A program made the position numbers and the translations under genes. Source: Halichondria panicea (Eukaryota > Porifera > Demospongiae > Suberitida > Halichondriidae). From it: DNA of 64,000 nucleotides. Shown here piece after piece: positions 1 to 39,286 of this stretch. The notes below the pieces were generated by a model. It ran no database searches, was not told the DNA's origin, and saw only the letters and a list, made by a program, of their open reading frames with translations. The first letter of the stretch is position 1; the number at the start of each line of letters is the position of its first letter. The stretch spans positions 5,990,250-6,054,249 of the forward strand of contig NC_087390.1 of the NCBI RefSeq assembly GCF_963675165.1, written 5' to 3'.

Positions 1-1520
1 TACGTATATCTATTTGATTGATGACGTTTAGTCTCCTCTACTATCTATGGCTAGATACAGCTGCATAGTGTGCGTTGACGCTAATACTGTAACCAAGTTG
101 AAGTACTTATCTGCAGCTCCCTGAATCTTGTAGCAGAAAAATGCTTGATCTGTTCCTAGAGCATCCAGGTCTTCTTGTCACACTCTGATAGGGACGGTCA
201 AGAGAGGTTGTCCAATAGCAGGGACTATGGTACACACGACCAGCAAAACAATGCTCACAGCAGCCATGCATGGCTCCCATATGCGCTGACAGCTTTTCAC
301 TCAGTACTAAATTAACACAGAGATATACACTACAACACAGTACATGTTATATAGACGTGCAGTGCATGACCATAATTATCTTATAGGTGACCACATTGCT
401 TCCACTTCTCAAGAATTGCATGCTGTGTACTGCATATTTCCTGGAACTTATTGTGGCTAGACTATATCACTTCTATAATTTTGCAGGAAATAATTTTATG
501 CTTAGTTTAATTTCATATACTGGTAGTCATGAATAAAGTAGAGATACTATATACATTATCAACTGCTACAGCATGCCATGGCACAGAAGTCAGTCAATAT
601 ACAGTATACTATAGGTCTAGATCTCTATTATTAATAGTGCATGACCACATGCATGCATGATAGGTGCATGACCATTACCACTTCTCAAGAATTGCTGGGT
701 ACTACTACAGGCAACTGCATACTTTTCTGGGAACTTTCATATCTGCCTGGCAATCATTCCATGCATGCATGCACTTTGCAATCTCCAACATGCATATAAT
801 ATAATAATATACATGCAATGCATGCACGTACGATTTTCCTTAATTACCGGATCGTTATATATAGGCTCACTCTATCCGACAGTCTTGAACTTCCATCATG
901 CACATGAGGTCATATATATATAAGTATACAAGTGGGTGAATGATCATTCTTTCCCGGCCGGAAATGGGGATGCCAGTGAGGTTGATAACGTAACGCGTGG
1001 GGGCGAGATTAGATCTACACATTCTGTCCACACCAGTGAAGGCTGTATAACACTATGCGCGTGTATATATTATGTTTGTGTCACTGCATGGGAGGTGGGG
1101 AAAGAGGTTAAAAGTTGGGATCAGTGGGGAACACAGTTGATTCAGAAGACCAGTCAAAAATTAATGTTGGATACATTAACTAACCTGCTTATTTTTATGG
1201 AGCTATATATATAGCTATAGCTGGACTTGCAAAACAAGGAGAAGCCCTTTTGGGGGACTGAATCTTCGTGAAACTTCACATTCATGATAGTTTTGGCGAG
1301 TTATTGTAATTTGTGATCACTAATTTAATAAAAGCACCGCGGGTGCTGATGCCTCGGTGGAGCTATAGGTGTCAATTAAAGCTACAGAAAATAAAGCTAC
1401 TAACTATTAGCAATACTTTTTATACACACATTATATCAGATGAACATTTTTGCATTGCTGCATATAGAGGTTCAAATGACCACACCCCTACAGTAGAGAG
1501 GTTTCAATACCGTGTAAACC
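1..1520. other. gene-free, repeat-rich left edge
   Basis: I see no supported gene here. The only longer open frames lack domain-like composition and splice context. A diverged direct repeat is visible: about 366-450 and about 663-738 share a GCATGACCAT start and a CCACTTCTCAAGAATTGC core. CATGCATG-type runs are frequent between 640 and 830. Part of 1320-1380 matches text seen again near 6785 and 28355 (a GATGCCTCGGTGGAG core), so it belongs to a dispersed repeat. Confidence 0.6.
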
Positions 1521-1541
1521 AATTTTCGAGGCACTAAATTT

Positions 1542-1632
1542 CGTGTTACTCAAAAATAACTCGCCTTAAATCAAATTGTTGTGTACAGCACTCAACTATT
1601 CGATTTAAGGCGAGTTATTTTCGAGTAACACG
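1542..1632. repeat. palindromic (foldback) element
   Basis: Two arms of about 34 bp are inverted copies of each other. The left arm begins CGTGTTACTC and the right arm ends GAGTAACACG. The loop is about 25 bp. This is the structure of a small non-autonomous DNA transposon. I could not define a target duplication. It sits directly against the LSM12 exon relic that follows. Confidence 0.75.
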
Positions 1633-1635
1633 TTA

Positions 1636-1800
1636 ACAGTTCTTTTTGTCCTCTTGAAACTTCAGTACCTACGAGTGTGTGTGTGTGTACAATAATGAAG
1701 TGGAATTGCAAAGAAGGAAACAGTAAATATACATGTAACTATTAAAATATCAGCTACTAGAGAAGCAGCTAAATGTGGACATCAATAATTGACATCAATA
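1636..1800 (-). pseudogene. LSM12 last-exon relic
   Basis: On the minus strand 1668-1636 matches the last coding exon of the intact LSM12 gene (10344-10312), including an AG acceptor just outside it. The stop codon is lost: the position reads TGT where the intact copy has TGA. Homology continues rightward to about 1800 into what is intron sequence in the intact copy. No other LSM12 exon follows, because gene X sequence begins at about 1826. This is therefore the stump of another module copy. Confidence 0.75.
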
Positions 1801-1825
1801 TAATTATATGAATAAATGCAACAAC

Positions 1826-2250
1826 AACGTTGCCTATAGGATCAGTCGGACAATTAGTGGAGCCTCACTACCTCCAGCACTGCATGGTGAGTTAGAGGGT
1901 ATGTGGTTTAGGGTATGTGCATGGTTAGGGTATTAATGGGGATGTGATTAAAGTACATGCATGAATATTAGTATATTTTACAGTGGATGAATGTTTATAG
2001 TTTGTAGTCGCCAGTACTACCATTATAATATAATTCTTTTCACTTTCTTGTTGGGCCAGAAAATAATTATACAATCACTTCAACAAGCAACTTCTATATA
2101 CCATGTTAGGTTTCACTTCTATTGTATCAACCATGCAGGGACTCCCCCCTCTGTACAACCTACCAAGCCCCACCCCCGGAGTTCTGCTCCTGAGAGACGA
2201 ACCACCCTCCCCCCACGCTATCAATTAAGGAGGCTGTTCCAATCATAGAG
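1826..2250 (+). pseudogene. gene X exon relics (Ser/Pro-rich protein)
   Basis: Two blocks match exons seen better preserved at 19.5-20.2 kb. Block 1835-1891 encodes the RISRTI..ASLPPAL segment and ends near a GTGAG donor. Block 2139-2240, after an ATGCAG acceptor, encodes a Pro-rich stretch with PERRTTLPP. The frames do not join cleanly and the second block soon hits a stop. They are read as duplicated remnants. The gap 2250-2530 holds nothing I can assign. Confidence 0.6.
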
Positions 2251-2532
2251 GCAATGCAGCTACAAGCAAGCTGATGACTATATGGAAGTATACCCTCTAT
2301 TGAGGCTCTAAACAATAGAATAGCTGTGTATTCTGCTCTCTTTGTTAGGCAGAACTATTACTTTCTATATAAATTATTACCTATGGTGTTTGTATATTCT
2401 CAGCAGTTGTACATGTAATGAATACCACATCTTTGCCAAAGTAAAATTAATAATTACACTTTACTAAGAGCTATATAGTATTTTACTATCTACAAAATGA
2501 GTCTGTTCCTCTCTTACTATTATGTTAGGGAC

Positions 2533-2979
2533 TCAACCGTTGAAATTATTGAGTATTGCTGGGAGAAGAAGAGACTGGGGATACTGCTTCTCTGCCACTT
2601 CCTCCTCACCGTCCTCCTCCTCCATAGCAGCGACCTCCTCCTCCAACTCCAATGCCATCTTCTGCAGCATCTCATTCAACTCTTCTCCAGTAGAATCCAT
2701 ATAATCGGGTTGTCGTCTGGGAGTGGGTGGGAGACACTCGACAAAGCCTTGCAAAATCCTTCTCAAGTTGAACCCCTCAATATCCACTTCATAAGATGGC
2801 CGATTATCCCTGCGGCCGATCTTCTGCAAAGCACATCCAGCAGTGTTCAAGATCTGAAAGAATTTAGACTTGAATCCATTGATTCTGGCCAGTTCTTCTT
2901 TGTCTTGATCGGTGAGGAGTGGTTTGCTGTGCACACTCACAAGCACAGCAAGCAAAGTAAGAGCAATGTAAAGCTTCAT
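2533..2979 (-). CDS. small secreted protein, 148 aa, unknown family
   Basis: This is a single-exon gene read from ATG at 2979 to a stop at 2533. The start is chosen because it opens a textbook signal peptide: MKLYIALTLLAVLVSVHS (basic residue, hydrophobic core, small residues before a likely cleavage point near residue 18). The frame is open further upstream but that part looks random. The mature chain is polar, with two cysteines (in GCALQ and VECLP, about 38 residues apart) that could form one disulfide. The C-terminal third is very acidic (Glu-rich, EEEDGEEEV) and would be a disordered tail. A TATA-like box lies about 65-73 bp upstream. No family is recognised. It could be an extracellular matrix, immune or venom-type peptide precursor, but the sequence does not decide. 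Confidence 0.65.
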   Translation of the reverse strand: MKLYIALTLLAVLVSVHSKPLLTDQDKEELARINGFKSKFFQILNTAGCALQKIGRRDNRPSYEVDIEGFNLRRILQGFVECLPPTPRRQPDYMDSTGEELNEMLQKMALELEEEVAAMEEEDGEEEVAEKQYPQSLLLPAILNNFNG

Positions 2980-3043
2980 TCTTCGTTTGAATTCTTGACT
3001 CGATCTTCTTTCACAAAAAATGAACAGAATTTGTTCGGTAGAA

Positions 3044-3052
3044 GTATATAAA
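3044..3052 (-). promoter_or_regulatory. TATA box of the secreted-protein gene
   Basis: On the minus strand this reads TTTATATAC and lies 65-73 bp before the ATG at 2979. That leaves room for a start site about 30 bp downstream and a short 5' leader. The position fits an inducible or tissue-specific small secreted gene. Confidence 0.5.
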
Positions 3053-3690
3053 TTCTCAATGTTGTCACTTGACAAATGAAATGTTATCTTGTATTTAGTT
3101 TCGGTTTCCTGAAAATTTTCCAAAATGATAATAAGCCTTGGGAAATAACTGTTGAATAGAGTCAACGTCAATTATTAATTTTATAAGATAGTGAGTTTTC
3201 ACAAATAGTACATCAGCTGGCCTTCACAATTAATGCATTTTAATTATCATGGGCATTCGGTATCAATGGTGGTTATAGTGTCTTTCAGCCCTCGGGCGTA
3301 AGTGCTATAATGAGTAATGGTGTTTTTGACTTGAACCGGCATGTACCTTAATTCAGTGTACATGTACATATACACTGAATTCAGGTATACGTGCATGATT
3401 GCCCCTACCTATATAGATAAGGTAAAAGGTGTATAGATACGGCAAGAGCAGATCACATGGAAATTATATATATGGGACTCAACAAAACAACTGCATGCAC
3501 AAAAATTAACGGCAATATAACTAGAATGATGAAACTGTTTGTCAGCCAGTTCCTCAGCTTTGTCTCCCTCCACCTCCTCCACCTGCTGCCATGAACAGTT
3601 AGCTCCCTCACTAAATCACTCTCAACCTCTCAGCTTTATCCCCACTCTCAATCTCACCAATACATGAAAGAATTTTTGCCGGAACTAGTA

Positions 3691-3754
3691 TAGCCTCCTT
3701 CACCGGCCGCGGCCTTCACTTCCCTGAGTGAAGTGCGGCCTGGGATCGAGGCTA
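3691..3754. mobile_element. 64-bp palindromic TAGCC element
   Basis: It begins TAGCCTCC and ends GATCGAGGCTA, with an inner palindrome around CTTCACTTCCCTGAGTGAAG. It belongs to the TAGCCTCGA family described in the findings. Flanks do not show a clear 9-bp duplication, so this copy is older or rearranged. It lies just upstream of the chimera start codon, probably in the 5' untranslated region or promoter. The stretch 3055-3690 holds no gene; a 45-bp inverted repeat occurs near 3345-3394. Confidence 0.7.
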
Positions 3755-3795
3755 TTCTGAATAAGAAGCTTCAGTTCAAATGTTCAACTTGTGAC

Positions 3796-6700
3796 ATGTC
3801 TCTGGTATCTAGATTCGAAGATATTGAGGCCACCACGGAGGTGCTCTCTCTTGGCTTAGAAGGAGGTAAGCTTGTCAATTTGGTCATGAGTTTTGATAGC
3901 CATACAGCATACATGTATAGCGCATACTACCGTACCGTAAGTGATGTACGCCACGTCATATCATATGTCAGCATCAGCATACTTTTTGAGTTTCCTAAAA
4001 GAAGCGCCTACCGTTGCTGTTATTTTTTCTGGCGCTTATAAAAGGCCTTTTTGAGACATCAAGGCAATTTTTGGTTTTCTCTCTCTCTCTCTCTCTCTCT
4101 CTCAGAGTTTGCTCAGTTTATCAACCAACCGATGAACTTGAGGAACCAACTACTGGCAGAGAACAACGAGCTGTGTACTCTTAGGGTGAGAAATATATCT
4201 GATAACTTGTGTGATAGCTTAGTAAGTAATTGTGTTGACGCCAAAAAAACTTAAAGCCTTAGGGTCACTTTTAACGTCATTACCCCCCCCCCAAACCTAA
4301 CGTCATAATGAAGTTAAGAAATGCAAAAGTTAGTCCCCTTAGAACGACATGTGTACTGTAGCTAGTAGACACTAAAAGTCTTGTGTGTTGATTATGGCTC
4401 GTTATATTGCAGACTCAGACTGAAACGGATAAGGTGAAGCTGAGACATGCAAGGTAAATTTGTCAACTACAGCTTAACTTTTGCTTTCATCATGTTTTAT
4501 TGCTTGTGCAGGAGCTCGTTCGATTATCAAATGAAAAAAAGACTTGAAGCTGAAGAAAACCTCAAGCAACATGTGGGTTGAGTGATACGTCGGTGGTGGT
4601 GGTTGGTACTAACCACCTCTAGACAATTTCTTAGTCCTGAGTTTACCATACGTAATAGCAAGAGTTCATTAGGAAGAGTACGCAACTCCACTTAAAACCA
4701 TAGTAGGCGTTTCTTCAAACTTACGTCGCAACCACATGCTGTTATAAACTTAGCCTCGATTCCAGGCCGCTCTCAGTTGAGAAAGACGGCCTGGTATACA
4801 CTGTCTGCGCATGCGTCAGTTGCCCCAAGATTCTTGGGGATCGAGATATCTTAGTAAATTAGTCAGTATATTGTATATTTTACAATGATGTCATTGCACA
4901 AATCACAGCAGTTTTAATAAAATAACACAGCTACTTACAACATTTACGACCTAGACTAGTGACTAGTTTTGTTGTGATGGCTTCTACTTCTGTTTTGCTC
5001 TTGCTCAAGCTCTCTCCAGTGTTGAAAAGTCAGATTTTGTCTTCTTTTGTACTGTGGTAGAGTGGTAGGCGTTTTTCTGTCAGTACCGACCGGCTCTGGC
5101 AAATCTACTTGCTTCCAGATGCTTGTTTGATGCCATCTCAGTAAGATCAGTGCTCCTCGTATAAGCTGCGCCTAGAGTTGTGATGGCGATTTCTCTCTCT
5201 TGACACTAAATAGTTTAATCAACCACGTGGGTGACCATAGTACAAAAGGTTAATTGATAAATTACAAAGAGTTTTACTAACAAATTTACTATTGAATCCA
5301 CCCACGCACAAACGGTGGTTACCAGGCCCTCTAGTGAGAGGGGCTGGGATCGAGGCTATTATAAACTGTGAAATCAAATTTGCAATGAACACAAACAGTA
5401 ACATTATCACTAATGTTATTCATTTACAACTGCCAGTAGGAAAGGCAATGAATAACATAGTCACTCATTGCCTTTCCTGCTAGTTGCGGTTACTACAGGC
5501 AGTATCTGTGACGTAAGATTGGAGGAATGCTTTTTGTGTACAGCTATTGGAGTTGCGTACTCTTCCTAATGAACTCTTGGTAATAGGCTTGGCAAATTTG
5601 TGTGTTATTTTGAAAATAGCCCCCACGTTGAAACTTGTGTGCACATCACTGGGCCCAGTTATGGCCTGTAATTATAACTGAAAGGTGCCTTCAAATTGTG
5701 TCTGTACTACATGTATGATACATGTGCCTCTAATTGTTTGCCCAGTTAAGGAGTATAAATCTATAATAGGTATGCATCGAATAAGTTCTTAGTTCGTTGT
5801 ACTGTTTTAGTAGTGTCCCTCTTATACTGTTTTCATTGTATTGTAGTTGTTTTTGCTAACTTATTTTTATCTCTCAGCGTTTTGTTTACGATTAACAACA
5901 CTCCTATCAATGTTTAACACACGCTTTTATCCAGGAAGTGTTTGAGGACAACTATCTCAAGTCCCCCACTGCTGTAAAGAGGAGGAGTTTGGTCAGCAGC
6001 TGTCGCTCACCCTCTAACATTCTCCTGGACGTCACCAACACACATGAGGTACATTTAATCTTTAACCAGTACACATACCGAGGCCATGTATTGTAGTGCT
6101 ATGTTTATGTACTGTACAGGATGCTCAAGTATCCATCTTGAGGGATGGCAAACGCTGGAAGAGAGTGAGTGTACAGTAACAGAGTCAGTGTGTGTAGTCA
6201 GAGATTAGTGTTGCTCTGAGTGTTTGATGTTGCAGCTACTGTGAGTACTGGTTGGTGTTTTTAAATCACTTTCTCTTTCTTTCTCTCCTCTGTGTCCAGC
6301 GTCGTACTGCCACCAAGAGGAGATCCAATGTGAGTAGTGTAATGGGAGGTTGGACATGGTCAAAAGGTGCACTAGAAGGCTAGCTATTGGTAGCTGCAAG
6401 AGTGAGAAGAGAGCTGCAAGGCTGCTGATGGCAGCCATTAATTAGACTTGAACTTTGGCATCGGTTAACAACAATCATGGTCGATCATTACCCACTCTTT
6501 GAGTTTGCAAGCAGCATGCAAATTAAAAAATGTTCATTATGTGTATAAAATTAAGCTACCGTATAGCGTGTAATTTTCGTGGGGCAAAATATTTTCGTGG
6601 TTGGAGGTCTGACCACGAATATTTTACCCACGAATGAAGCGACCTTGCCTACCTTTACCTGCATTGCAAGCTCCAACCACGAACATATTACCCACGAAAT

Positions 6701-9291
6701 GTCTCAATGTTGCTGAACCACGAATATTTTGTCCCCCGAAAATTACCCGCTATACGGTATTAGTAGCTTTATGTTATGTAGCTTTGGCATCTCCACCGAG
6801 GCATCAGCACCTGCGGTGCTTTCATTATTTAAGCTTCAAATTAATTGGGCTTGCTAATCTCATAGCTACAGCAATTTACACGTATCATTATCACCCAATT
6901 CCTCCATGCACACAGAGTGGCAATGCAGTCAATAAGATACCACCATTAGACAAGCACTTCAAGAAACCACCTCCACTCAAGAATCGCCGTACACCCAGCA
7001 AACAACACCTCAAGCAAATGGCCTCAGGGAGTGGAGAAGACGAGGAGATGGACGGTGAGTATGGGTGTGGTGTGTGGTGGGTGGATAAATACAATTCTAT
7101 AGGCTAGGATTGTCTGAGCTGGCAAGCCCTATTGAGTCATTGGCTATGACTGTGCATTAGGTTGTGTTGTTAACCCAAGGCGCGTGGGCGGCCACGGGCT
7201 ATAGTAGTCGTTTGGTTTGTTTGTGACAGGATCTACTCACCTGGATGCCACAGCACTGCGTTTACAGCATGGATAGCCTTTGTACAACAAGTTATTAGTT
7301 TTAATAGTGACAGAATTTCATGTTAAACCTTCGTTGTCAAATAAAAACGAGCAAAAGCTAAGAAGCTTGTGACTGGGTCTGCTTACCTGGATGCTCTAGC
7401 ACTGCGTTTACAGCATGGGTAGCCTCCACACAACAAGTCAGTACTTCTAATAGTGGCAGCTTTCAGTGTTAGAGCTTCGTTGTCTAATAAAAGCGAGCAA
7501 AATGTAGCTTGAACAGAACTTACACACTCCGCCACATGCGTTACTATAACTGAAGTGATCCTGTACCAGGTCCAGGAACAATGGAACAGGGTCACTAAAG
7601 TAGAAAGCTTGCTTTAGTTGACTGGGATCCTACTCCATGTAGGACCTGGATACTTCTCTGAGACTCCAGGCTTCTTTGCTGTGATCCTAATCCACAGTGC
7701 ATATATCTATAATACCACTATCTGTTCTCAAATGTTTCAGCATACCTCCAGTCTGGTTTAGTTTTATTGCTCCTGAGTTGCTGTGCAAGTCATACGTGAT
7801 AACAACATCACTATATGCACTGCATTATATCACTCTTCTGGTTTCTTTATAATCATGTCACCAGCCGAGGGTTTGCACTTCAGTGTTCTAGTTCATATGG
7901 TTAGCTTCGTGTGTTTTCAGCTTTATGACAGTTACTGTTTACATTCAACATTAATTTTCTCTAAACTTGTGATGCATATTAATTTATGAAGTATAATCTC
8001 TGCAGTGATCATCTGAATGCTTTCACTGTCATAACTGTACCCTCTAGAGTATTACAGTCAGGTTGTGGGATGTGATAGCCCGAAGTCTCCATAGCATGTG
8101 TTTGGACCTGTGTTAGCAGGCCACCCTCTATAATACAGCCACTGTTGATCTGTCCAAGGGTGACGACTACACAATATACAAATGCCCCCTGCATTGCTGT
8201 ACCCCCCACAGCTATAGACCTTACCACACCTCCTCCCTCTGAGAGTGTCATGGTAACCCCCACAGCCCCACCCCTCTATCCTGTGCTGCCATCAGCAGAG
8301 TCACCTCTTTCCTTAGGTGTGTGGAGTGTGCGTGTTTGTGTGTGTGTGTGTGTGTGTGCGTGTGCGTGTGTGTGTTTGTGTGTGTGTGGGTGGGTGTGGG
8401 TGTGCGCGTGCGTGCGTGTGTTTGATTATCAAATAATTCTGTTTGTGTTTTATTCACAGACCTCCCTGGTGTTGAGGTATTAGCTCGCACTACCGTTATT
8501 GTCACCAACTCATCCCAAACATTCGTCTGGGATGGCTATGGGTTCAAGCTCACCATACCCCAGGGCTCTCTGCCAGCTGGTGTTGACAAGTGTCGACTAG
8601 ACATCGTGGCCAGTGTAGCTGGACAGTACCAGTTTCCTGACAATCTCCAGTTGGTCAGCGGTATCTTCTGGGTACATACTTATCCTTCGGATCGATTTCA
8701 ACAGCACCTGACAGTCGAGATACAGCACTGTGCCAAGATGACCAGCTCCACCAAGCTCTTATTTGTGAGAGCATGTTGCTCCCAAAAGCATCTTCCATAC
8801 ACATTTGAGGTAGTAGACAGTCATGCATCATTCTCAGAGCATAACTCATATGGGGTGCTAGAAATCAATCATTTCAGTGGATATGGTATTACTGCCGAAA
8901 TAACAGAAGGAGTAGCAGCAGAACGACACTACATTGCAAGCCTTTACTATTTTGAGGTGTCTCCTTCTATTTCAAGAATTCATTTTGTAGTAACTTGGAA
9001 TACTGACATTCACAGTGAGGTATAGGGCTTAATTTTCTCCTATATTATAAAATTGATTTCATTATTCAGGCTGTGGATCAGCACTACAAAAAGAAGCGTG
9101 CAGTCTTGGAACAGTACTCAGCCTTGGAGTTCGAAAAAGATAGAATTTCCCTGAAAATAGAGGATGCAAGTGGTTGGGAAATAAAGGGCAAGTTGGGTCG
9201 TCGCCCGGTAGAAACCGGGCGACGCCCCAACTTGATTATGTACTTGAGAAGGAGTATGATGACTTCAAAATTTAGGGAAATTACTAACTGA
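3796..9291 (+). CDS. RacGAP1 N-terminus / ZU5 chimeric protein, 488 aa
   Basis: Exons: 3796-3865, 4106-4185, 4413-4453, 4512-4572, 5935-6048, 6120-6164, 6300-6329, 6916-7054, 8212-8316, 8460-9019, 9070-9291 (the last may be shared with a repeat). All have GT-AG borders and the summed length is 1467 nt with no internal stop. The first four exons encode the RacGAP1 coiled coil (VKLRHAR...DYQMKKRLEAEENLKQ). The next five encode the RacGAP1 linker (DGKRWKR, KHFKKPPPLKNRRTPSK), but the fifth is a shortened fusion of two RacGAP1 exons and others carry in-frame deletions. In place of the C1 and RhoGAP domains, a phase-1 intron leads into a complete ZU5 domain (about residues 229-415; LPGVEVLARTTVIVTNSS onward), then the start of a UPA-like region. 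The frame ends inside a SINE at 9189. Centralspindlin-type oligomerisation with a ZU5 scaffold is an inference. Expression is unproven, and a decaying duplicate is the alternative. Confidence 0.65.
4751..5358. mobile_element. 608-bp TAGCC-family DNA element in intron 4 of the chimera
   Basis: The left end is TAGCCTCGATTCCAGGCC and the right end is its inverted form, GGGATCGAGGCTA. It is flanked by a perfect 9-bp duplication, TTATAAACT (4742-4750 and 5359-5367). No coding capacity is visible. It fills much of the intron between the fourth and fifth chimera exons, the intron that in the later copies carries nested genes. Remaining intron sequence (4573-4741, 5368-5934) shows no gene. Confidence 0.85.
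6375..6540. repeat. dispersed repeat, copy 1
   Basis: This intronic stretch is an inverted, diverged copy of about 28330-28610. Shared text includes a segment with AGCTGCAAGAGTGAGAAGAG and GGTCGATCATTACCCA. It is non-coding. The second copy lies in the RacGAP1 intron that holds the nested genes. Confidence 0.55.
6557..6759. mobile_element. TACCGTATAGCG-family miniature element
   Basis: Terminal inverted repeats TACCGTATAGCG...CGCTATACGGTA enclose several TTTTCGTGG / CCACGAAT segments that also fold on themselves. Relatives with the same ends or inner CGAAAATT motif occur at 9875-10086 and 35284-35450, and a solo end lies near 58845. It is non-coding and lies in a chimera intron. Confidence 0.75.
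7232..7504. repeat. two-copy direct repeat of about 125 bp
   Basis: Copies at about 7232-7353 and 7379-7504 share CACTGCGTTTACAGCATG, then ACAACAAGT, then CTTCGTTGTC and AATAAAA.CGAGCAAAA. They lie in the large intron 7055-8211 of the chimera, which shows no gene on either strand. Confidence 0.65.
8330..8421. repeat. imperfect (TG)n tract in the RacGAP-ZU5 junction intron
   Basis: TG dinucleotides are broken by CG and GGG units. The tract sits in the short intron between the last RacGAP1-derived exon and the ZU5 exon. That makes it a plausible recombination point for the fusion. The left side of the intron matches the RacGAP1 intron starting at 36299. The right side does not. Confidence 0.6.
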
Positions 9292-9361
9292 ATTGTAAGA
9301 AAATATACGAAAAGTCCCCCAAGAGGGAATCGAACCCACGCCTAATCTATTATCTGATGCC
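9189..9361 (-). mobile_element. tRNA-derived SINE, copy 1 (head truncated)
   Basis: On the minus strand a pol III B box (GGTTCGATTCC type) lies near 9330. The body and a perfect terminal hairpin follow (9190-9235: CAAGTTGGG...CCCAACTTG with GTCGCCCGGT in the stem). It is nearly identical to the copy at 10579-10797. The tRNA head is cut near CTGATG, where gene X exon sequence begins. The plus-strand reading frame of the chimera runs into this SINE and stops at 9289-9291. Confidence 0.75.
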
Positions 9362-9706
9362 TGGAGCACTACAAGCCCAAGGTGAGTGTATTTCATGGCA
9401 GGGTTTGTGTGAATAGATTATTATGTGTAACAATGATTGCATGTGCAAAATGTACGAAATAATCTTGCATGGTGGCATCAATGGAATTTCCTGGGTACCA
9501 AGTCTAATCGTTCATGCATATAAACTTGTTTTGTAAAAAGAGGAGCTTTAGCATTTGTTGTGCAGTAGCTGTTTCGTAGGATCTGTATATAATGTAACTT
9601 TCATCTCTTGTCTCTTGTAGGGGTTCATTGGCGCCAGTGACTAAGGAGAGGGTGCTGAGTGTCGTCAGTGAGGAAGCAAAGAAGGAGACAGACGACTCAC
9701 AGACAT
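9355..9706 (+). pseudogene. gene X 3' end (truncated exon plus last exon)
   Basis: The first piece (9355-9380, ATGCCTGGAGCAC...AGCCCAAG then GTGAGT) matches the end of a gene X exon at 20414-20442. The last exon, 9620-9706, follows a TTGTAG acceptor and reads SLAPVTKERVLSVVSEEAKK...DSQT then TGA. Its frame is better kept than the homologous exon at 21570. The 5' exons are gone, replaced by a SINE joined at a CTGAT microhomology, so this is a stump. Confidence 0.6.
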
Positions 9707-9874
9707 GAGACGAAGGAATCACTGATCACTAAACTAAACTAAAACTGAAACTAGGTTTTAGAAGTGAAATATTACTTTAATTAGTTGTGTGCAGGAGTTC
9801 TCCTATATATTTTTTAATTACTGAAGTTTATTCTTAAATAAGTATACACGTAGACCAAATATTTTCATTACATA

Positions 9875-10086
9875 TACTGTACGGGTAGAAAATTTCGAGG
9901 GTGTAAATTTTCGTGCAATTCTCTTATTTGGAAAATTTCGCGGGTAGTAAATTTCGTGGAGTTAGGGTGTGTCACTATCTTGCATGCGTAAACAAAGCCT
10001 TTCGCGGGTTTTAATTTTCGTGTTCTGCAGCCACCCACGAAAAACACGAAATTAAAAACACCTCGAAATTTTATACCCGTACAGTA
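9875..10086. mobile_element. foldback element with TACTGTACGGGTA ends
   Basis: Inverted ends TACTGTACGGGTA...TACCCGTACAGTA enclose AAATTTCG(A/C)GGGT repeats that pair with each other. It resembles the TACCGTATAGCG family in its inner motif but has different ends. It is non-coding and lies between gene X and LSM12. Confidence 0.7.
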
Positions 10087-10311
10087 TAACAATTTATAAA
10101 GAAACATGTAATAGCACGTGTATAATTATTATAGAGGAAGTACAGGAAATAACAATGTACAAGTTGTGACTAGTTATAAGACACGACATGTCATGTGATA
10201 CAATACAAAACAGCAAAGCATGTGTTGTATAGAAAGAAATGTGGTATATGAGTGTTCAGTATACTATGGAGTTATTATAAGATGGTTCATGTGTGCAGAG
10301 AGATAGTTCAG

Positions 10312-11465
10312 TCAGTTCTTTTTGTCCTCTTGAAACTTCCGTACCTATGAGTGGGTGTGTGTGTGTGTACAATAATGAAGTGGAATTGCCGCAAAGAAGG
10401 AAAGTAAGTACATGTAACTATCAGAATCAGCTAATTATGGAGTGTGATTTACCAGTAATTAAATAGAGAAAACAGCGCTAAATGAAAACAGTGCTAAATG
10501 AGGACATCAATTACCTTACAAACAGTATATTGGCGAATTTCTTTTCGTATTGTAGAGGCTGAGTATCAATCATACGAAGGGCAAGTTGGGTCGTCGCCCG
10601 GTAGAAACCGGGCGACGCCCCAACTTGATTATGTACTTGAGAAGGAGTATGATGACTTCAAAATTTAGGGAAATTACTAACTGATTTGTAAAGAAATATA
10701 CGAAAAGTCCCCCAAGAGGGAATCGAACCTACGCCTAATCTATCATCTGATCTACTAAGCCACCACCTTAACCACTAAGCCGCACCTATTCTGTCCCTAG
10801 TGGATTGCAGACTTGCAGTGCACTTGTGAAAGAAAATTGCCATGTAGTATAATTATAATTATCATAATTTCATTCTAACATGTACAGTACATATATGTAA
10901 TACATGTAAAGCTTGCTCTTTTGTTAGCTAGGTCCAAACTGAAATAGATACCTATGATAGTATTCTTGAAAAGCTTAGTATGTACATGTACAATGTATCT
11001 GCATGAAATACATTTCAAGAATGCTTGCAATGATTTGACTTGACTTGTATACATGTAATTGTTTAGGGGGAGAGGGCAAGCCTAGAGAGAATTAAAGAGA
11101 GTCTGCCGAAATGGTTATCAGTTCAGTTTGCTTTCTACATGTTACCTAAAACAGTACAGTGGAACCCTCTATAACGGACACCTTTGAGGAGCCATGTTTT
11201 GGCCACTATACAGAGGTGGCCTTGAGTGGCTGTTTTATACACACGTGCAAGAGAGGGTAGGCTTAGAAATTATTATCTATTGTGGTTTTGCTGTAGAGCA
11301 ATTCTCTGTTGCAAGTGCACTGTAACCCACAGTAATAGCTCACCAACTTCTGAATCCTAGCCAGGAGACTGTTGGAACCCGTACAACTGTCAGGTGTATA
11401 AGGAGGGGAGATCCTGACATCACTCAATATCACTATATCACTGCTCTTCCACCGAGTGTCACTGT

Positions 11466-11500
<35 letters not shown>

Positions 11501-12242
11501 CGTGTGTGTGTGTGTGTGTGCGTGTGCGTGCGTGTGTGTCCATGGATAATAATATCCTTATCCGAGAACGAAAAATTTGGCAAGCTACTTTCGGGGAGGC
11601 CATAACTTCACTAAAAAGTAATATTAAGATGCATTGTGTAGCACTAGACAAGGCTTATCATGACATGCTCAGATTAAAGTTATGTAACGTACTAAACCTG
11701 TAATGGACCGATTTTGAAAGGCTAGATACGGTACTTACAGTTTTGCCAAAGAGTCGAACAGCTGTTGGGCCTCATCTGAAACATTAACCCCTCGGCTCTC
11801 GGTTTTCTTCCGTTTAGCGACAACGTTTTGCTCCAATCTTTGTTGCACCTTCTGCAGGTTAATGGCCGGGAGGTTTGTGGGTGCGGTGAGCTGGGTGTGG
11901 CCTGATATTTTGAGATCTGACACATGGTGAAGATTGATAATCTGGACGGAATCTCCAACAGAGTCAGTGGTTTCTTCTGAACGTTAGATAAGGTAAATAA
12001 TTAATTTATATATTAATTATAAGAACGCTATGACACCATCAAAAAACATTTATGTAGTACATGTATGTAACAAATTGTTGACAATAAGCGTATTGATTGT
12101 GAATGTAATTAAGAATTATGTTCGGAAGGATACTGATGATGACAACTTTCGTCTTCTCGTCCATAGCAATCACACTTCCCCTCAAATCATCTCCCCGACT
12201 GGTGGTACATGTCAGCAGAGCTCCTCCTGGTGGTACTGCCAT
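10312..12242 (-). CDS. lsm12: LSM12 homolog, 167 aa
   Basis: Exons read 12242-12134, 11976-11739, 11467-11344, 10344-10312; the sum is 504 nt, phases agree and all borders are GT-AG. The product starts MAVPPGGALLTCTT with an Lsm-type N-terminal barrel (LRGSVIAMDEKTKVV, then VQIINLHHVSDLKI). It continues into the AD domain typical of LSM12 (SRGVNVSDEAQQLFDSLAK, WKSSDIVILSDVRISPPY) and ends QEDKKN. Human LSM12 is 195 aa with the same order; it binds RNA-associated ataxin-2 complexes and has been reported as an NAADP-binding protein. Intron 2 contains a (TG)n tract (about 11470-11540). The gene is head to head with a RacGAP1 copy, 315 bp apart. This is the only complete LSM12 among three copies here. 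An unusual SINE lies just past its 3' end. Confidence 0.88.
10579..10797 (-). mobile_element. tRNA-derived SINE, copy 2 (full length)
   Basis: Read on the minus strand, a tRNA-like head spans 10797 to about 10710: an A-box-like TTAGTGGTTAAGG and a B box GGTTCGATTCC. An unrelated body follows, and the element ends in a perfect hairpin at 10579-10625. The tRNA cloverleaf is degenerate (ends do not pair), so this is a SINE and not a tRNA gene. It lies in LSM12 intron 3. No poly(A) tail is seen at the hairpin end. Confidence 0.75.
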
Positions 12243-12557: not shown

Positions 12558-13180
12558 ATGTCTACTCTGGTATCTAGGTTCGATGATATTGTGGCCTCCA
12601 CAAATGTGCTCTGTTCTGGCTTAGAAGGAGGTAAGCTTGTCAAGTTGGTCATGTTTTGTTTATAGCCATGTGGATACTATAAAAATGCATAGCTAGCTAG
12701 CTAGAGAGCATGTGTACTGTTTTCTTATGTTTGAATATTCTCTCTCTGTCTCAGAGTTTGCTCAGTTTATCAACCAACCGATTAACTTGAGGAACCGACT
12801 ACTGGCAGAGAACAACGAGCTGTGTGCTCTCAGGGTGAGAAATATGTGACAACTTGTGTGACAGCTACATGTATTAGCCTATTGACATTGATATTGACCT
12901 AAAGATAGGCAATTGTGCATATTGTATAAAAATTATGCTCTTTTCAGTGACAACAATAATATTGTCTTGACGCCATGCCATAAAAAGAATTTTTACTCTA
13001 GCACATGTGACCCCAAAAAATTCCATTTAAAGCCTTATACCTGTGTGTTAACTATGAGTTGTGCTAACTCAAGTGTGTTTTATCACAGACTCAGACTGAG
13101 ACAAATGAGGTGAAGCTGAGGCATGCAAGGTAAATTAATGAAATTGTTAATTGTAGGATTTCATGAATCTGCTCAGTCAA

Positions 13181-13300
13181 TACTCGGAGGATATGCATCC
13201 CCAGTATATCCTCCGCTACCATGGTTACATACCCGTTAGCTACGCCTTAGAGTAACGACGGTAGCAGATGATGTACATGTATAGGTGCATATTCTCCTTA
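13181..13300. mobile_element. CGGAGGATATGCA palindromic element, copy 1
   Basis: Left arm TACTCGGAGGATATGCATCC and right arm GGTGCATATTCTCC are inverted. An inner pair ATCCTCCGCTACCATGG also folds. Relatives are at 24771-24886 and 49256-49383. The same element sits in the same RacGAP1 intron 3 of both modules, so it predates that duplication. Confidence 0.7.
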
Positions 13301-14659
13301 TGTTTAGTATATCCTATGTACATGTAGAGAGAGAAAAATTATAAATTGTGATTGTCAGTACAGTGTACATTGTTTATGTTGATCAACTATATATAGCCTA
13401 AGGTTTTGCTTTCATCATGTGATGCGTGGTTTTGTTGCTTGTGCAGGAGTTCGTTCGATTATCAAATGAAAAAGAGACTTGAAGCTGAAGAGAACCTCAA
13501 GCAATATGTGAGTGGACGATTAGTTAATCAGGGATGTGCCCACACTGGTCAATGGTGGTGGTTGGTACTAACCACCTTCAGACAAAAATGAGCACTTAGG
13601 CCTAGTTAAATTATTAAGTGCATTAATAGGCTCTAAAAGAAGCAAATTTGTATTAAGATTAAGTATTGAAAAATAGCCACCACGTGAAAAGTGTGTGCAC
13701 ATCACTGGTAAGGGATAAGCGCTGTATTTCATCAATTAATCGCCATACATGTATGTGCATCAATGGCACGAACGTTGGTCTCGCTAACGACTTAAACCTT
13801 GCGCCTTGTATAACCTCAGTTAGTTATGTGTTTACCTCCATCTTAGTTACGTGTAAGAGTGCCTCAACTATAAAGGTTCCTGTATCAAAATTGTGTCTCT
13901 GTTTGTGTACAAGTAGTGTACATACTAATTGCCTGCTCTGTTGTTATGGCCCAGCTACTCGGTGATTATTGTAAAACTTAACTATTCTTTCTGCACCTCT
14001 CTCTCTACAATACAATACAATACTTTTGCTATTGATCCAATGCATTCTCGATTAATCCATGCACTCTTGTGTACTTACTGGTTGTACTAATGTATTGTGT
14101 ATTGTACATTAATTTTCACTATTATACTGGTCTGTTTATAATACTATCAATATCCTTCGTGCATGTATTTCATAGTATACACACTATTATATATACTGCA
14201 TTTATTTGTGCAATTTTGACCAGAATTTGATACTTTATTTCTTGTAACAATTACATGTATGTACATAGTACGTCTAGAAGAAGTGTAAACTGTGCGGTAT
14301 ACAAAAGGCTGCTCTGCATGTGTACATGTATAATTATACGTTTTCATTTGTACACATGCTGCATTCTAGTGGTCCTTGTGGTGATATGACTATGATAAGA
14401 CTCTCGGCTTTTAACTTTTAACTACCACTAATTAGACTAATAGACTAGTCCTCACATGTGTAACTTATGTAGTCACCTGACACTGGCTGTTTATCTGTTC
14501 CAAATCTCAGTAAAGTTTGAAGCATAGCAACCATTGTTTCTGTAGCAGTGCTAGTCATACCAAAGCTTTAGCTGTACATGTAGAATAGAGATATATCTTT
14601 TGATACTAGTTTGGCAGTATTTTTTCAAGTCTAGAGTCCATAGCAATTGTTTGGCAACT

Positions 14660-16048
14660 ATGTCTAAGGAAAGCAGTAAGTCGACCTCAACTGGAGTCTC
14701 GAATTCGACAAGACGAACTAGTCAACCACTCGACAATATGCCTAAACTTATTACAAATGAGTTTGAGTCTGGTTTTGATGATACGACAAATTCCGTCCCA
14801 ATTGTTGGAGAGGCAGAAACTACGAAAGGAGCTACTGCTACCACCTCTACTGTCTATTTTCCTGACTCAGAAACCCAACAGTCGTACATTGCGTTCAAGA
14901 AAGCCTTAGGTGATGGCACAGACACTACTATTCAAGGGGGTGGAATTGATGGGCAGGACGAGGAAGATCACAATCTGACTGTGGACACTTATCGTGAGCA
15001 AGAGAGCCCCATCTCTGAAGCTGTAGAGGAAATCAAATGTCACCAGAAACAAGAAATGGTGTTAACAGCAAGTCAGAAATCTGGAGCAAAATCTCTGGAC
15101 AGTGGAGCCAGAGACCCAATTAAAAATTCTGTTGATGTGATTATTCGTGAAAGTGAGCGAAAGAATACAATCATCAACAAATTAGAGGTGGAATTGGCTA
15201 CTTGCCAGCACCACGAATCTGAACTCCTAAAAGAGGTCGATCACCTTCGAGAGGAAAATGAAAAACTGGAGCATCAACTTATCGATCAAGAGAAGGAAAC
15301 TGAACGCACAAGAGAATATCACGAGAAAGAAATTGCAAGTCTTGAGTCCCAATTGAAAGTGAAAAAAGATGAAGTTAAAGTTGCCAAAAGTCAATTGGCA
15401 GTGGTTGAGAAAAAAAACGAGGAGGAGAAACAAAAGCTCATGGATGCAATTAAAATTCTTAAAGATCAACAAAACGAGTTAGAGTCAACTGTCAGCAAGC
15501 TTCAAGATGATCGCAAGAAAAAAGAGATAGAGAGTAGAGAATCGATTTTGTCTTTAAAGGAAAAATTAAACGAAAAACAAGTGCTTGAAAATGAACGATT
15601 CAAGGAACTTTGTGTCACTCAAGTGAAACTGGCTCAAGCTGAAGCAAAAATTTCAAGACAGAGAGAACTGTTAAAGGATAAGGACCTTGTCCTTGCACAA
15701 GAAAATAAGGAGAAATTGGAGTGTGAAAACGAACAGCTTAAGAAACAGAATGAATCGTCTCAAACTAAGCTCATAGAACTAGAAGATAAATTAAAAGAGC
15801 GATCTTCATCCACCAATCAACCAGTGTTTCAACAGCAATTATCTGAGGCAGAGTCTACTGCTTCTGCCAGCAGCCTCAAGCCCTCCACAGGAACACAAAA
15901 TTCACTGACTGAATCTACTGAAGTAGTACCAAGTCGTAGCACTTCAGAGCAAATCGCAGACTTTGAAACTGAAGCTGTTAAAGGGGATACACAATCAAAG
16001 AATGTAGGTTTTACAGTAGGCGAGGTTGGCATCAATGATAATCTGTAA
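14660..16048 (+). CDS. nested coiled-coil protein, 462 aa
   Basis: This is a single exon inside RacGAP1-copy intron 4. The start MSKESSKSTSTGVSN is chosen over an upstream in-frame ATG because it is shared with the paralog at 29975 and is preceded by similar leader sequence in both. Residues 1-160 are Ser/Thr- and acid-rich and look disordered. Residues about 165-390 are a long heptad-type coiled coil rich in Lys/Glu/Gln. The tail has the SSLKPSTGTQNSLTEST motif that the paralog keeps. No membrane segment or known domain is present. The 5' flank (14400-14650) is conserved with 29690-29970, which supports an own promoter and not merely read-through of the host intron. Function unknown; a cytoskeletal or scaffold role is a guess. 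Confidence 0.75.
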   Translation: MSKESSKSTSTGVSNSTRRTSQPLDNMPKLITNEFESGFDDTTNSVPIVGEAETTKGATATTSTVYFPDSETQQSYIAFKKALGDGTDTTIQGGGIDGQDEEDHNLTVDTYREQESPISEAVEEIKCHQKQEMVLTASQKSGAKSLDSGARDPIKNSVDVIIRESERKNTIINKLEVELATCQHHESELLKEVDHLREENEKLEHQLIDQEKETERTREYHEKEIASLESQLKVKKDEVKVAKSQLAVVEKKNEEEKQKLMDAIKILKDQQNELESTVSKLQDDRKKKEIESRESILSLKEKLNEKQVLENERFKELCVTQVKLAQAEAKISRQRELLKDKDLVLAQENKEKLECENEQLKKQNESSQTKLIELEDKLKERSSSTNQPVFQQQLSEAESTASASSLKPSTGTQNSLTESTEVVPSRSTSEQIADFETEAVKGDTQSKNVGFTVGEVGINDNL

Positions 16049-18802: not shown

Positions 18803-19722
18803 GAGAAGCAATTCACTTTATCCTGGAACTGTTGGGGGACAAACTTAAATCTCTGCCTTCAGTCCTGCGTGAGTGGTGGCTGTGTGCCTGTGTGTAGACA
18901 TGGGTTTATGTACTGTGTGTTGGCCATGGTCTTTGTATTGGGGAAATTTGTTTGTCTCTAACTGCATTCAGTGCTTGAAATAGAGAATTGTCCCTTCAAT
19001 GTGGTGGTGCATGATTGTACGAATTTGTATACAGGAAGCTAGCCAACTTAAACAATCATTTGTAATCTCGTGTAACATTATTATATTAGTCTCTCTCTAT
19101 CTCTCCTCTCACAGCCACAGCTATCTGAGTGAGTCAGTGACTAGCAGTTGTCTCTCACCCTCTGACCTCTCCCTGGATGTCACCAACGCAGATGAGGTAC
19201 AGTACTTTTTTAATGTGTGTGCAATCCCTTTGTTCTGTACACATGTATTGTGACACTGTGCTTTTTTTATTGTGTGCTTTCTTTATTTTACTGTACAGGA
19301 TGCTCAAGTATCCATTTTGAGGGATGGCAAACGCTGGAAGAGAGTGAGTGTAGAGTCAGTGTGTGTAGTCAGAGATTAGTGTTGCTCTGAGTGTTCACAG
19401 AGAGTTTTTTCCTGTACATGTACATGTAGCTACTGTACATGACTGTACTGTTTATGGTGGATATGCTACATCTCTTACAGAAGTTGAAAACTTGTCCCCT
19501 GTTCCTCAGCAGTCGTTTAAGCCGCGGGGTGGAGCTAGTATTCGTCCATCGCTAAGCAGTTTGGGTACTGCTTTACCGTTGCCTAGGATCAGTCGGACTA
19601 TTAGTGAAGCCTCACTACCTCCAGCACTGGTGAGTTAGAGGGTATGTGGTTTAGGGTATGGAGGGTGTTGGTGGGTATGTGATTAAGGTGTATACATAGA
19701 TGTTACTATAATATTATTGTAG

Positions 19723-19876
19723 CAGAGGAAGTACGACACGCGTGTCTCGATTTAGCAGTTAGCCTCAGCAATAATGTTGAGCGTGGGCGGAATTATGCCT
19801 CGATTATCCGCCCACGCTCAGCGTTATTGCAGAGGCTAATTGCTAACTCAGGGCACGCGTGTTGTACCTCCTCTGG
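19723..19876. mobile_element. hAT-like palindromic MITE
   Basis: Ends CAGAGGAAGTAC...GTACCTCCTCTGG with long inverted arms (GAGCGTGGGCGGA / TCCGCCCACGCTC). It is flanked by an 8-bp duplication TATTGTAG (19715-19722, 19877-19884). CAG-type ends and 8-bp duplications are typical of hAT elements. It splits a gene X intron. Confidence 0.75.
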
Positions 19877-20539
19877 TATTGTAGTGCAGTTTGCATTAGT
19901 CACGAGTTACATATAACTTTTGGGGGGGGGGGACAGTATATACATGTACATGTACAGTAAAATCAACAATTGCAAGTCAACTAGCTACATGATATAAGTT
20001 GTTTATGTAGATTCACTCTGTCAACATCAATTCATCCTACAGCAATTTTTTCCACCATGCAGGGACTCCCCTCTCTCTCCAAGCTACCAAGCCCCACCCT
20101 CGGAGTTGCTGCTCCCGAGAGACGAACCACCCTCCCCCCCACTGAGAGGTGGTGCTATTGGCTCCTATCTCTCGACCTACCCCCTTTATCTATTGGAAGG
20201 GCCTCCCTCCCTCTGGTAAGAACCTCTGGAAATGATCCTCTACAGTCAATCCTTATCGTCAGTTGCCATACCCTCGAGGCGAACGTCAATAGATCCGTTT
20301 GCGGCTGACTCTACTGGGCCTACACGAAGGACCACCCCCTCCACACTAGGCCCCTTCTCATTGCCCACCACTCAGATGCGGAACCCTCTCGCTCGAAGTC
20401 CACCCATTCGTCTGATGCCTGGAGCACCCCCTACAAGCCCAAGGTGAGTGTATTTCATAGCAGGGTTTGTGTGCATGACTCTGTATACTGACGACATACT
20501 GCATACTGCATGCATCTGTGTACTACGATTGTGTACTAC

Positions 20540-21305
20540 CAGAGATACAAAAGAAAGGGGATTGGAAACGACCGCCCACGCCCTATGTAAAAGGACTGAC
20601 ATCCGGTGAAGCACTCCGTGTAATTATTGCGCTCGCAAATAATTACATGGAAAAGTTTTGTATCCCTGGTTTCTAGCTCTCCTATCCACTAGAGATCACT
20701 CAGGGCCTGGGAGATACTTGAGAGAAGTAAGCTTATACCACTGACAAGCTCTAAGTCCGTTGTCTTTACTCTGTTTCCAATTTTTTTGAGTTTAGCTTGA
20801 ATTACTCTATGTCAACTTTTCTCTGTCCCTCCTGTGAAGTCAAAACAGCAAAGGACATTGCTTGACTTGGTTATTATGTATCTAAGTGCTACATAGAATG
20901 GCTTCATGCTATAAATAAGCTGTACTGTTCATAAACGTTTGCAGTATAGTCCTTCAAACTGCTTTAGTATACTTTTAGACACGCCACAGGCCTGTCCCTC
21001 CTACGACTTCATAGTAAAGGCTATTTCTTCTTGCATAGCATTTATTTGTCTAGTAATAGTGGCTGCATGGCTTAGTCGACTTTTTAGAGCTAAATTCTCT
21101 TTACTTTTTAGAAAAATCAACATTAAAAATGATCAATTTCACTGTTTCTATGTACAGCACATTGTAGAGCAGTCAAGACTGGTAATGAGCATGCTGACTA
21201 TAAATATAATCCTTTGTAGTTTTAGCCACGCCCTATAACGCGGAATGCTTCACGCAAAAATTTCGTAAAAATTTCGTTTCCAATCCCCTTTCTTTTGTAT
21301 CTCTG
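20540..21305. mobile_element. 766-bp inverted-repeat element in a gene X intron
   Basis: Terminal inverted repeats of about 30 bp (CAGAGATACAAAAGAAAGGG and its inverse) are flanked by a 7-bp direct repeat GTACTAC (20533-20539, 21306-21312). A second inverted pair lies inside (GCCACGCCCTATA type). No transposase-like frame is seen. The end style suggests hAT. Confidence 0.75.
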
Positions 21306-22078
21306 GTACTACCGAATGTATTGCCAATCTTAATGGTGGTTATAACATTTTAAAAGGGCTTTTTCGTATCTAATCATTCATGCATATCCACCTTGTTAGG
21401 TAAACATTGTTTGCACTGCTTTGCAAATACTAGGAATAGCCATCAGCGTAATTATGAATCTCTAGCTTTGTTGTTTGTGTATTGTTTAACTTTGCAGTAG
21501 CTGCTTTGTAGGATCTGTAACTAGTATTAAAAATACATGCAAATGTAATTTTCATCTCTTCTCTTGAAGGCGTCCATTGGCACCAGTGACTAGAGAGGGC
21601 GCTGAGTGTCGTCAGTGAGGAAGCAAAGAAGGAGACAGACAACTCACAGATGTGAGACAAAGAAACCACTGACTAAACTAAAACTGAAACTATGTTTTAA
21701 TCATAAATAGTATTGGAAAGTGTGTATAATAATTATAGTTGCACTAGCTACTAGAACATAAATACTTGCAATTGTGTACAGTATGTAGTTCTCCTTAATT
21801 GGTATGACAATAAAATTATTATTGCGAAATACTGATATGCATAGGTAGCAACTTTAACATGTAAACACACTAGACCAAATATTTTCAACAATAATTATAT
21901 AGACATGTAATAACACACGAGGAAGTATAGGAAATAACGATGTACAAGTTGTGACTAGTTATAAGACACAACACGTCATGTGATACAATACAATTAAGCA
22001 TAATATGTGGTATACAAATGTTCAGTATAACTATACTATAGTTACAAGATAGTTCATATCTACAGACAGATAGTTCAG

Positions 22079-29104: not shown

Positions 29105-29152
<48 letters not shown>

Positions 29153-38100: not shown

Positions 38101-38141
38101 ACTCTATTGTAGAAAGCACAATACACACACACTCTCACACT

Positions 38142-38175
<34 letters not shown>

Positions 38176-39231
38176 GCTGACAAGACAGTTCGTGAGGTGA
38201 AGGAGAGGCTGTTGGTTGCTAAGGGCAACCCGGGACTTGACAAGGTGTCAGACGTCAACGTACTATGTGGAGTGCTCAAAGATTTCTTCATTAAACTGAA
38301 AGAGCCGCTACTCACCTTCAAGCTACACAGTACCTTCATCAAAGCCACAGGTGAGAAACAAAGCAGTAATTGGAATAGTCCCTTGTACAATAGCTGTGCC
38401 TATAAAGATACAATAGAAGATAGTATGCGGCAAAGCATACAATACACTACACTGCTGTAGCTCTACACAAAGCATTTCCATAATTTGAAGCTTTACAGAT
38501 ATTCACTGGAGGAACAGTTGATAACTGGGAAGAGAGCACTGCTGCATATTAATTGTGTATTTTCCTCTCCCCCCTCAGAGTGCACTTCTGATGAGGATGG
38601 GCTAGGCGCCACCCTGGAGGCCATTGCTTGTCTCCCTCCTCCCAACAAGGACACTCTAGCCTTCCTCATACTACATCTACAGAGGGTGGCTGCTCAACAC
38701 CAGGCCAACAAGATGCCAATGGTCAGTCTGGCTAAGGTGTTCGGACCAACTATCGTAGGTGAGCCACATCAGCAGATAATTATGTCTGTTGTGTTTAGTT
38801 GTACACAATTTCTGGTCCTTTGAGTGTCTCAATTTAACTACCAAATAATTATAATGTCGCATTGATTATACCAGGAGCCCATAGATAAGAGAAGGAGCGG
38901 CTGACTACGGGGATCACGTTTCGTAAGTGGTTATGACCGCATTTCCATATTATCCAGAGTCACTAAGTGGTTGAATCCCTACACGTGTTATACGCAATAC
39001 AAGGCTGCGGTTTGCAAGCACTTAGTCGCTTCCATAAAGGAAGTGCGGTTTCACCGGCAATTACGAAACGTGATCCCCGAGTATACGTTAAAGTCAGCCG
39101 CTCCTTCTCTTATTTATGGGCTCCTGATTATAGCTACAATAGGTTTGAATTTGCAAAAAGATTATTTCAATAATTATTTACCGTACATTCAATGTTTTCA
39201 GCTTCTTATTATCTCATTACCCTCCCCCCCT

Positions 39232-39286
<55 letters not shown>

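Follow-up and report, generated by a model that had tools for sequence, protein, structure and literature searches.

An in-frame genomic chimera of RacGAP1 and ZU5 exons in the sponge Halichondria panicea

RESULTS

Layout of the locus

The window, by which we mean the whole analysed stretch of 64,000 nucleotides from the sponge Halichondria panicea, carries the beginning of RacGAP1 in three units, A, B and C, together with parts of a second gene, gene X (Table 1). Unit C is the intact gene, and its protein is present in the database as LOC135347852 isoform X3 (P0001). Unit A consists of eleven exons in a single frame. The GT/AG borders are in place at 10 of 10 introns, the phases are consistent at all exon borders, and 1467 nt including the stop stay open, encoding 488 amino acids, so that the eleven-exon reading proposed in an earlier note on this DNA is borne out. 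RacGAP1 is the source of residues 1-228 and a ZU5 exon pair that of residues ~229-453, and a dispersed repeat supplies the remaining 35 together with the stop.

Table 1. Coordinates of unit A, of the related units and of neighbouring ZU5 exons in the window
Feature	Position	Strand	Remarks
Unit A, all eleven exons (3796-9291)	3796-3865, 4106-4185, 4413-4453, 4512-4572, 5935-6048, 6120-6164, 6300-6329, 6916-7054, 8212-8316, 8460-9019, 9070-9291	+	
Unit A exons 1-4	3796-4572	+	N-terminal stretch of RacGAP1 with the beginning of its coiled coil; A-branch dN/dS 1.17
Unit A exon 5	5935-6048	+	part of RacGAP1 exon 5 and part of exon 6; intervening intron and 75 exonic nt missing; acceptor shifted
Unit A exons 6 and 7	6120-6164, 6300-6329	+	RacGAP1 exons 7 and 8; exon 8 equivalent lacks 39 nt, in frame
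Unit A exon 8	6916-7054	+	RacGAP1 exon 9, minus 75 nt in frame
Unit A exon 9	8212-8316	+	RacGAP1 exon 10, minus 27 and 18 nt in frame
Joining intron	8317-8459	+	donor side of RacGAP1 intron 10, (TG)n tract, acceptor side of a ZU5 gene
ZU5 exon	8460-9019	+	enters in phase 1; HF/S motif with F at 8873-8875 and S at 8876-8878 (residues 367 and 368)
Beginning of post-ZU5 exon	9070-9183	+	corresponds to the exon behind ZU5 in the nearest relative (C14:4449572-4450305, whose match is 84% identical over query positions 21-747); shortened
Dispersed SINE-like repeat	9184-9358	+	encodes the last 35 residues (454-488), stop at 9289-9291; second copy at 10577-10751 (97%)
Gene X 3' tail fragments in unit A	9353-9760	+	attached to the repeat
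Unit B RacGAP1 exons 1-4	12558-13507	+	conserved; differs from C by 1 nonsynonymous and 6 synonymous changes
Unit B remnants of RacGAP1 exons 5-7	18803-19343	+	frame broken
Unit B gene X 3' part	19490-21699	+	joined 3' of RacGAP1 exon 7
Unit C, intact RacGAP1	24178-40051	+	20 exons, 698 aa, C1 and RhoGAP (5e-38)
Neighbour ZU5 exon 1	43408-43944	-	same reading frame opens with a coiled coil; Death match downstream (42026-42412); gene not assembled
Neighbour ZU5 exon 2	56150-56707	-	Kelch-like frame upstream (by eye, resembling P0033), Death match downstream; gene not assembled

Nine exons of unit A match exons 1-10 of the intact RacGAP1; the count is one short of ten since A exon 5 fuses parts of two RacGAP1 exons. 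Over the aligned positions, residues 1-228 are 85% identical to the intact sponge protein, with eight coiled-coil residues and 25 more amino acids missing relative to C. Sequence matches also confirmed the proposal that the intron joining the two halves has a RacGAP1 donor side and a ZU5-gene acceptor side. Unit A is a true in-frame genomic chimera that arose through familiar types of event. The intron preceding the joining exon contains a repeat of ~0.7 kb (7167-7893) that recurs at very many genomic places, some of them tandem arrays (204 matches counted).

In a Pfam scan of the chimera, ZU5 was the sole family, at 16.3 bits and below the cut-off of 21; neither C1 nor RhoGAP was found, while RhoGAP was readily detected in the intact copy, and neither UPA nor Death was found. 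The earlier note had described a complete ZU5 exon followed by a UPA-like exon. Both exons are indeed present, but the second is cut at 9183 by the repeat, leaving 38 codons of it, and UPA and Death are consequently absent. The repeat has at least 45 genomic matches (40 of 121 candidates scored), and its junction with the gene X tail has about six shared bases. By eye, one might guess a tRNA origin for it; ARAGORN and Rfam scans for such an origin were negative.

Tandem duplication across the border of gene X and RacGAP1

Gene X, the gene of a large membrane protein, appears to be intact immediately upstream of the window, as judged by eye without assembling the gene, and the membrane protein encoded at its end, also read by eye, has a tail rich in proline. 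Gene X stands on the left and the intact RacGAP1 on the right, with joins of RacGAP1 to gene X lying between them, an arrangement that implies a tandem duplication across two gene borders. Indeed, the anatomy of the locus shows that a tandem duplication across the gene X/RacGAP1 border left the chimeric units A and B and the intact unit C. The 5' part of one gene is combined with the 3' part of its neighbour, and both parents flank the product. According to PMC5460883, chimeras from tandem duplications in Drosophila yakuba likewise fuse a gene's 5' end to the 3' end of a different gene; unit A differs from the cases given there in having added the ZU5 exons of a third gene.

The number of RacGAP1 copies in the genome rests on exon DNA queries. 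RacGAP1 exon 9 gave two genomic matches (C and A), and exons 1-2 gave four matches at three places (A, B and C). A chance resemblance of A to RacGAP1 was rejected, since the exon queries match A, B and C alone. A haplotype duplication as the source of A was likewise rejected, the divergence being too large. The region is repetitive, as might be expected if an assembly artefact had united unrelated copies; yet the local matches between A and C (window 1-12000 against the whole window) are mostly 71-94% identical, which is more divergence than collapsed alleles would show, and they follow one another as a simple duplication history would predict. We regard such an artefact as scarcely credible.

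Other features lie within the introns of the RacGAP1 copies. Intron 4 of B and C contains long coiled-coil frames (14660-16048, 26779-28029, 29975-31564 and 32091-33655), partly duplicated between the two units (14660 and 29975), and the frame at 32091 weakly matches Death and CARD, with scores under the cut-off. In the intact gene, a 70-bp tandem repeat (35837-36144) copies the end of intron 9 and its acceptor several times.

The ZU5 exon belongs to a dispersed family

The ZU5 exon has about 40 genomic matches (41 returned), on contigs C14, C8, C3, C17, C22, C1, C16 and C13. The nearest relative of the exon pair is the C14 copy given in Table 1, and the ZU5 exon of unit A is a mosaic of family members. 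A genome scan with PF00791 gave 27 matches, and the ZU5 place of unit A is not among them; the ZU5 of the relative P0033 (H. panicea LOC135347836) likewise scores low in Pfam, with 16.9 bits. In the search admitting proteins of 268-854 aa, P0033 is the protein closest to the ZU5 part (79% over 47% of the query), and it has the exon pair and its intron in common with unit A; its N-terminal part consists of Kelch repeats, whereas that of the chimera comes from RacGAP1. In other proteins the ZU5 module is annotated alongside Kelch, ankyrin or Death regions. Two groups of reading frames with ZU5 and Death matches also lie in the window (42023-45005 and 54586-58885, both on the minus strand). From the sequences, these multiple partners look like exon shuffling in the sponge. 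The ZU5 profile had no match in a PDB sequence search, Foldseek gave none at E <= 0.001, and the structure-comparison scores of ZU5 fall in a range that unrelated folds also reach.

Unit A carries the motif HFS, which is present in 23 of 34 aligned members of the ZU5 family, F-S being present in 32 of 34. PMC3210808 reports self-cleavage of PIDD at HF/S, and of CARD8 and NLRP1 at SF/S. The HF/S motif is thus common to the ZU5-like exon of unit A and the ZU5-UPA region of PIDD and of the CARD8-NLRP1 FIIND described in that text, whereas the chimera has its UPA cut off and has neither Death nor CARD. The earlier note had read the locus as an exchange of the C1-RhoGAP half for a scaffold domain. 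The loss of C1 and RhoGAP stands, but because the family carries HF/S like the self-cleaving PIDD, the label of a scaffold domain is too narrow.

Frame-preserving length changes

Is the open frame of unit A a matter of luck? The exonic gaps between A and C correspond to seven events, with runs of 3, 23+1, 75, 36+3, 75, 21+6 and 18 nt, and all are multiples of three once neighbouring runs are joined; the aligner split three events (23+1, 36+3 and 21+6), and 8 of the 10 raw runs are multiples of three. The first change is ambiguous, being either a gap of 3 nt or a change of 4 nt that brings in a new ATG. The local alignments show a single exonic gap, of 4 nt at the start codon, in a count that left out 6 of 19 alignment rows, including exon 9 and most of exon 10. 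Over introns and flanks, the same count gave 24 gaps, of which 4 are multiples of three and 20 are not. Other sponge proteins, inspected by eye, have sequence at the 24-, 75- and 39-nt gaps and partly at the second 75-nt gap, and these losses therefore belong to A. Assuming the intron rate over 660 nt, neutral evolution for a quarter to half of the path would give 4.8 to 9.6 frameshifts, with a probability of 0.008 to 7e-5 of finding none. The ZU5 exon pair behaves similarly relative to its nearest relative: it shows a 12-nt insertion and a net loss of 9 nt, which the aligner split into four runs, while none of the five gaps in the short intron of the pair is a multiple of three.

Unit A could also be a relic that was dead from the outset and never selected as coding. 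Mismatch rates between A and C are alike in exons (46/420) and introns (79/688), in a count without exon 9 and most of exon 10, and the frame of unit B did break beyond exon 4. The absence of stops in the RacGAP1 part is unsurprising in any case (P 0.21 to 0.47), and is weak evidence. A relic of this kind would nevertheless be expected to carry several frameshifts, and no clear one is present; we consider this reading highly improbable. The kept frame of the length changes is the best reason not to dismiss unit A.

Amino-acid constraint differs between the two halves

Over the 228 codons of the RacGAP1 part, the pairwise comparison of A and C gave a dN of 0.088, a dS of 0.19 and a ratio of 0.465. 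Resolved by branches, dN/dS is 0.87 on the A branch and 0.06 for B/C, and 1.17 for exons 1-4 of A. A single ratio across A, B and C is rejected (2dlnL 7.0), and omega = 1 on the A branch is not (2dlnL 0.13). B contributes 84 of the 228 codons to this test and the other 144 rest on A and C alone; in this unrooted comparison of A, B and C, the A branch includes the B/C stem. With exons 5-10 alone, and thus two taxa, the A-branch omega of 20 is an unusable estimate. Where amino acids depart from the RefSeq form, the change is derived in A at 15 positions and in C at 6 (two of these at the ambiguously aligned start), with 14 left unpolarised, and 6 of the 52 positions identical in P0001, P0002 and P0004 are altered in A. 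The A-C mismatches fall on codon positions one to three as 22, 15 and 29, the third position still being favoured. On the A branch, the RacGAP1 half of unit A is without detectable amino-acid constraint in these comparisons and seems to be drifting.

The ZU5 exon has a dN/dS of 0.42 on the A branch and 0.427 in the family, with omega = 1 giving a 2dlnL of 4.55; this estimate used 12 of 22 sequences, and the mosaic nature of the exon blurs it for the branch. Compared with the nearest relative, its final 89 codons gave 0.25, and A against the comparison exon named in the earlier note (43402-43946) gave 0.38 with a dS of 0.61. The ZU5 constraint may predate the fusion. A dN/dS near 1 along the whole frame, which the earlier note had named as speaking against a chimeric gene, is thus seen in the RacGAP1 half and not in the ZU5 half.

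Of the 39 aligned residues that open the protein and form its partner-binding stretch, 9 differ between A and C, or 8 without the one that A has in common with B; in the next stretch 4 of 45 differ, and the changes are not significantly denser at the N-terminus (Fisher P 0.21 for 8 and 4).

The upstream region and the isoforms of RacGAP1

Upstream of the first exon, B and C are alike over about 800 nt, and A keeps only about 25 nt of this region. Where the RacGAP1 promoter of unit A would be expected, a small-protein frame with a signal-peptide-like start, as judged by eye, lies on the minus strand (2533-3171).

We found no protein spanning the junction in the search admitting 268-854 aa (best coverage 53% of the query), nor with a 234-aa junction piece and proteins of ~129-410 aa, where the best coverage among the 120 of 163 matches listed was 59%. 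Such searches pass over shorter, longer or exon-1-4-only proteins, and a RacGAP1 variant that starts in A would hide in the 90% cluster of P0001. Since the cluster of the intact RacGAP1 itself has ncbi and uniref sources only, transcript-derived matches are no evidence of absence here. A literature search returned no paper with both RacGAP1 and ZU5, and the texts available from it hold no apparent description of the fusion.

P0001 has G24, as encoded by exon 1 of B, and exon 1 of C encodes E24; residue 24 is the only one in exons 1-4 that distinguishes the two units. The annotated RacGAP1 isoform therefore appears to start in B and continue in C, which suggests transcripts of RacGAP1 that begin in unit B and are spliced over about 20 kb to exons of C, and the tandem 5' units may act as alternative beginnings of RacGAP1. 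By extension, exons 1-4 of A could be alternative first exons spliced to exon 5 of C, making the ZU5 exons irrelevant. The composition of P0001 and the conservation of exons 1-4 in B agree with this reading; the dN/dS of exons 1-4 in A and the loss of the upstream region shared by B and C argue against it, and we hold it to be improbable.

DISCUSSION

Here, we describe a locus at which the N-terminal exons of RacGAP1 are joined in frame to a ZU5 exon pair. We lean towards the view that unit A is a genuine and fairly young chimeric locus that originated in three steps, was kept in frame under selection for part or much of its history, and is now weakly constrained. This view is favoured by the frame and phases, the duplication map, the exon matches confined to A, B and C, the length changes, the contrast in dN/dS, the loss of the promoter and the failure to find a spanning protein. 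Against it count the pairwise ratio of the RacGAP1 part together with the third-position bias of its mismatches; a working protein would also fit the kept frame and the dN/dS of the ZU5 half.

In the first step, as the anatomy shows, the 3' part of gene X through RacGAP1 was tandemly duplicated. In the second, an exon pair of the multicopy ZU5 family became joined to unit A within a phase-compatible (TG)n intron; the join can be read from the DNA, and the route to it is our conjecture. In the third, the dispersed repeat and a junction with short homology shortened the ZU5 gene and attached the gene X tail, both of which are visible in the sequence. Unit A probably stayed in frame under selection over much of its history, and its RacGAP1 half would have lost RacGAP1-like amino-acid constraint; with the native promoter gone, it would now give little or no useful protein. 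If translated, the product would be a GAP-less N-terminal piece of RacGAP1 with a shortened coiled coil and a PIDD-type ZU5, and might cut itself between F367 and S368.

A more ambitious reading is that unit A is a functional chimeric gene, spliced as predicted, whose RacGAP1 front dimerises or binds kinesin-6 and whose ZU5 self-cleaves or binds partners. Consistent with this are the frame open across eleven exons with intact splice borders, the in-frame length changes, the ZU5 dN/dS on the A branch and over the last 89 codons, the retained HF/S and the annotation of the module with Kelch, ankyrin or Death elsewhere. Moreover, PMC4395295 states that residues 1-120 of CYK-4 suffice for a stable complex with ZEN-4, and that an artificial dimer of its first 40 residues forms a stable complex and alters the motility of ZEN-4. 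Relative to RacGAP1 / MgcRacGAP / CYK-4, the source of residues 1-228, the chimera is without C1 and RhoGAP, its coiled coil is shortened and its N-terminus has diverged. The RacGAP1-part dN/dS near 1, the substitutions in the partner-binding stretch (although not significantly above those of the next stretch), the missing residues, the absence of the ancestral promoter and the lack of a protein in the length-limited searches all speak against function, which we judge rather unlikely.

The earlier note had gone further and suggested a new protein able to bind centralspindlin partners without GAP activity. The absence of C1 and RhoGAP agrees with this suggestion, but a working protein is made less plausible by the dN/dS of the RacGAP1 half, the lost upstream region, the missing UPA and Death and the failure to find a spanning protein. 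A centralspindlin-binding protein is possible but not favoured on the sequence, because the N-terminus differs at 9 of 39 residues, the coiled coil is shortened and the RacGAP1 half is without detectable amino-acid constraint on the A branch. In the boldest form, which we offer as a speculation and think clearly unlikely, the protein would combine the dimerising, kinesin-6-binding front of RacGAP1 with a self-cleaving PIDD-type ZU5 into a GAP-less, division-linked adaptor that releases a C-terminal piece, as one of the products of a promiscuous ZU5 exon whose fronts in this sponge include Kelch, ankyrin, Death and RacGAP1.

In summary, our preferred reading of unit A is that of a young chimera under weak constraint, and the locus offers a clear snapshot of the birth of a chimeric gene, in which a tandem duplication across gene borders, a phase-compatible exon join and a truncation by a repeat are preserved with the parents adjoining. 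If expressed, unit A would couple an adaptor of cytokinesis with a ZU5 module that may cleave itself. The dispersal of this ZU5 exon over the genome behind several different fronts points to exon shuffling in the sponge.
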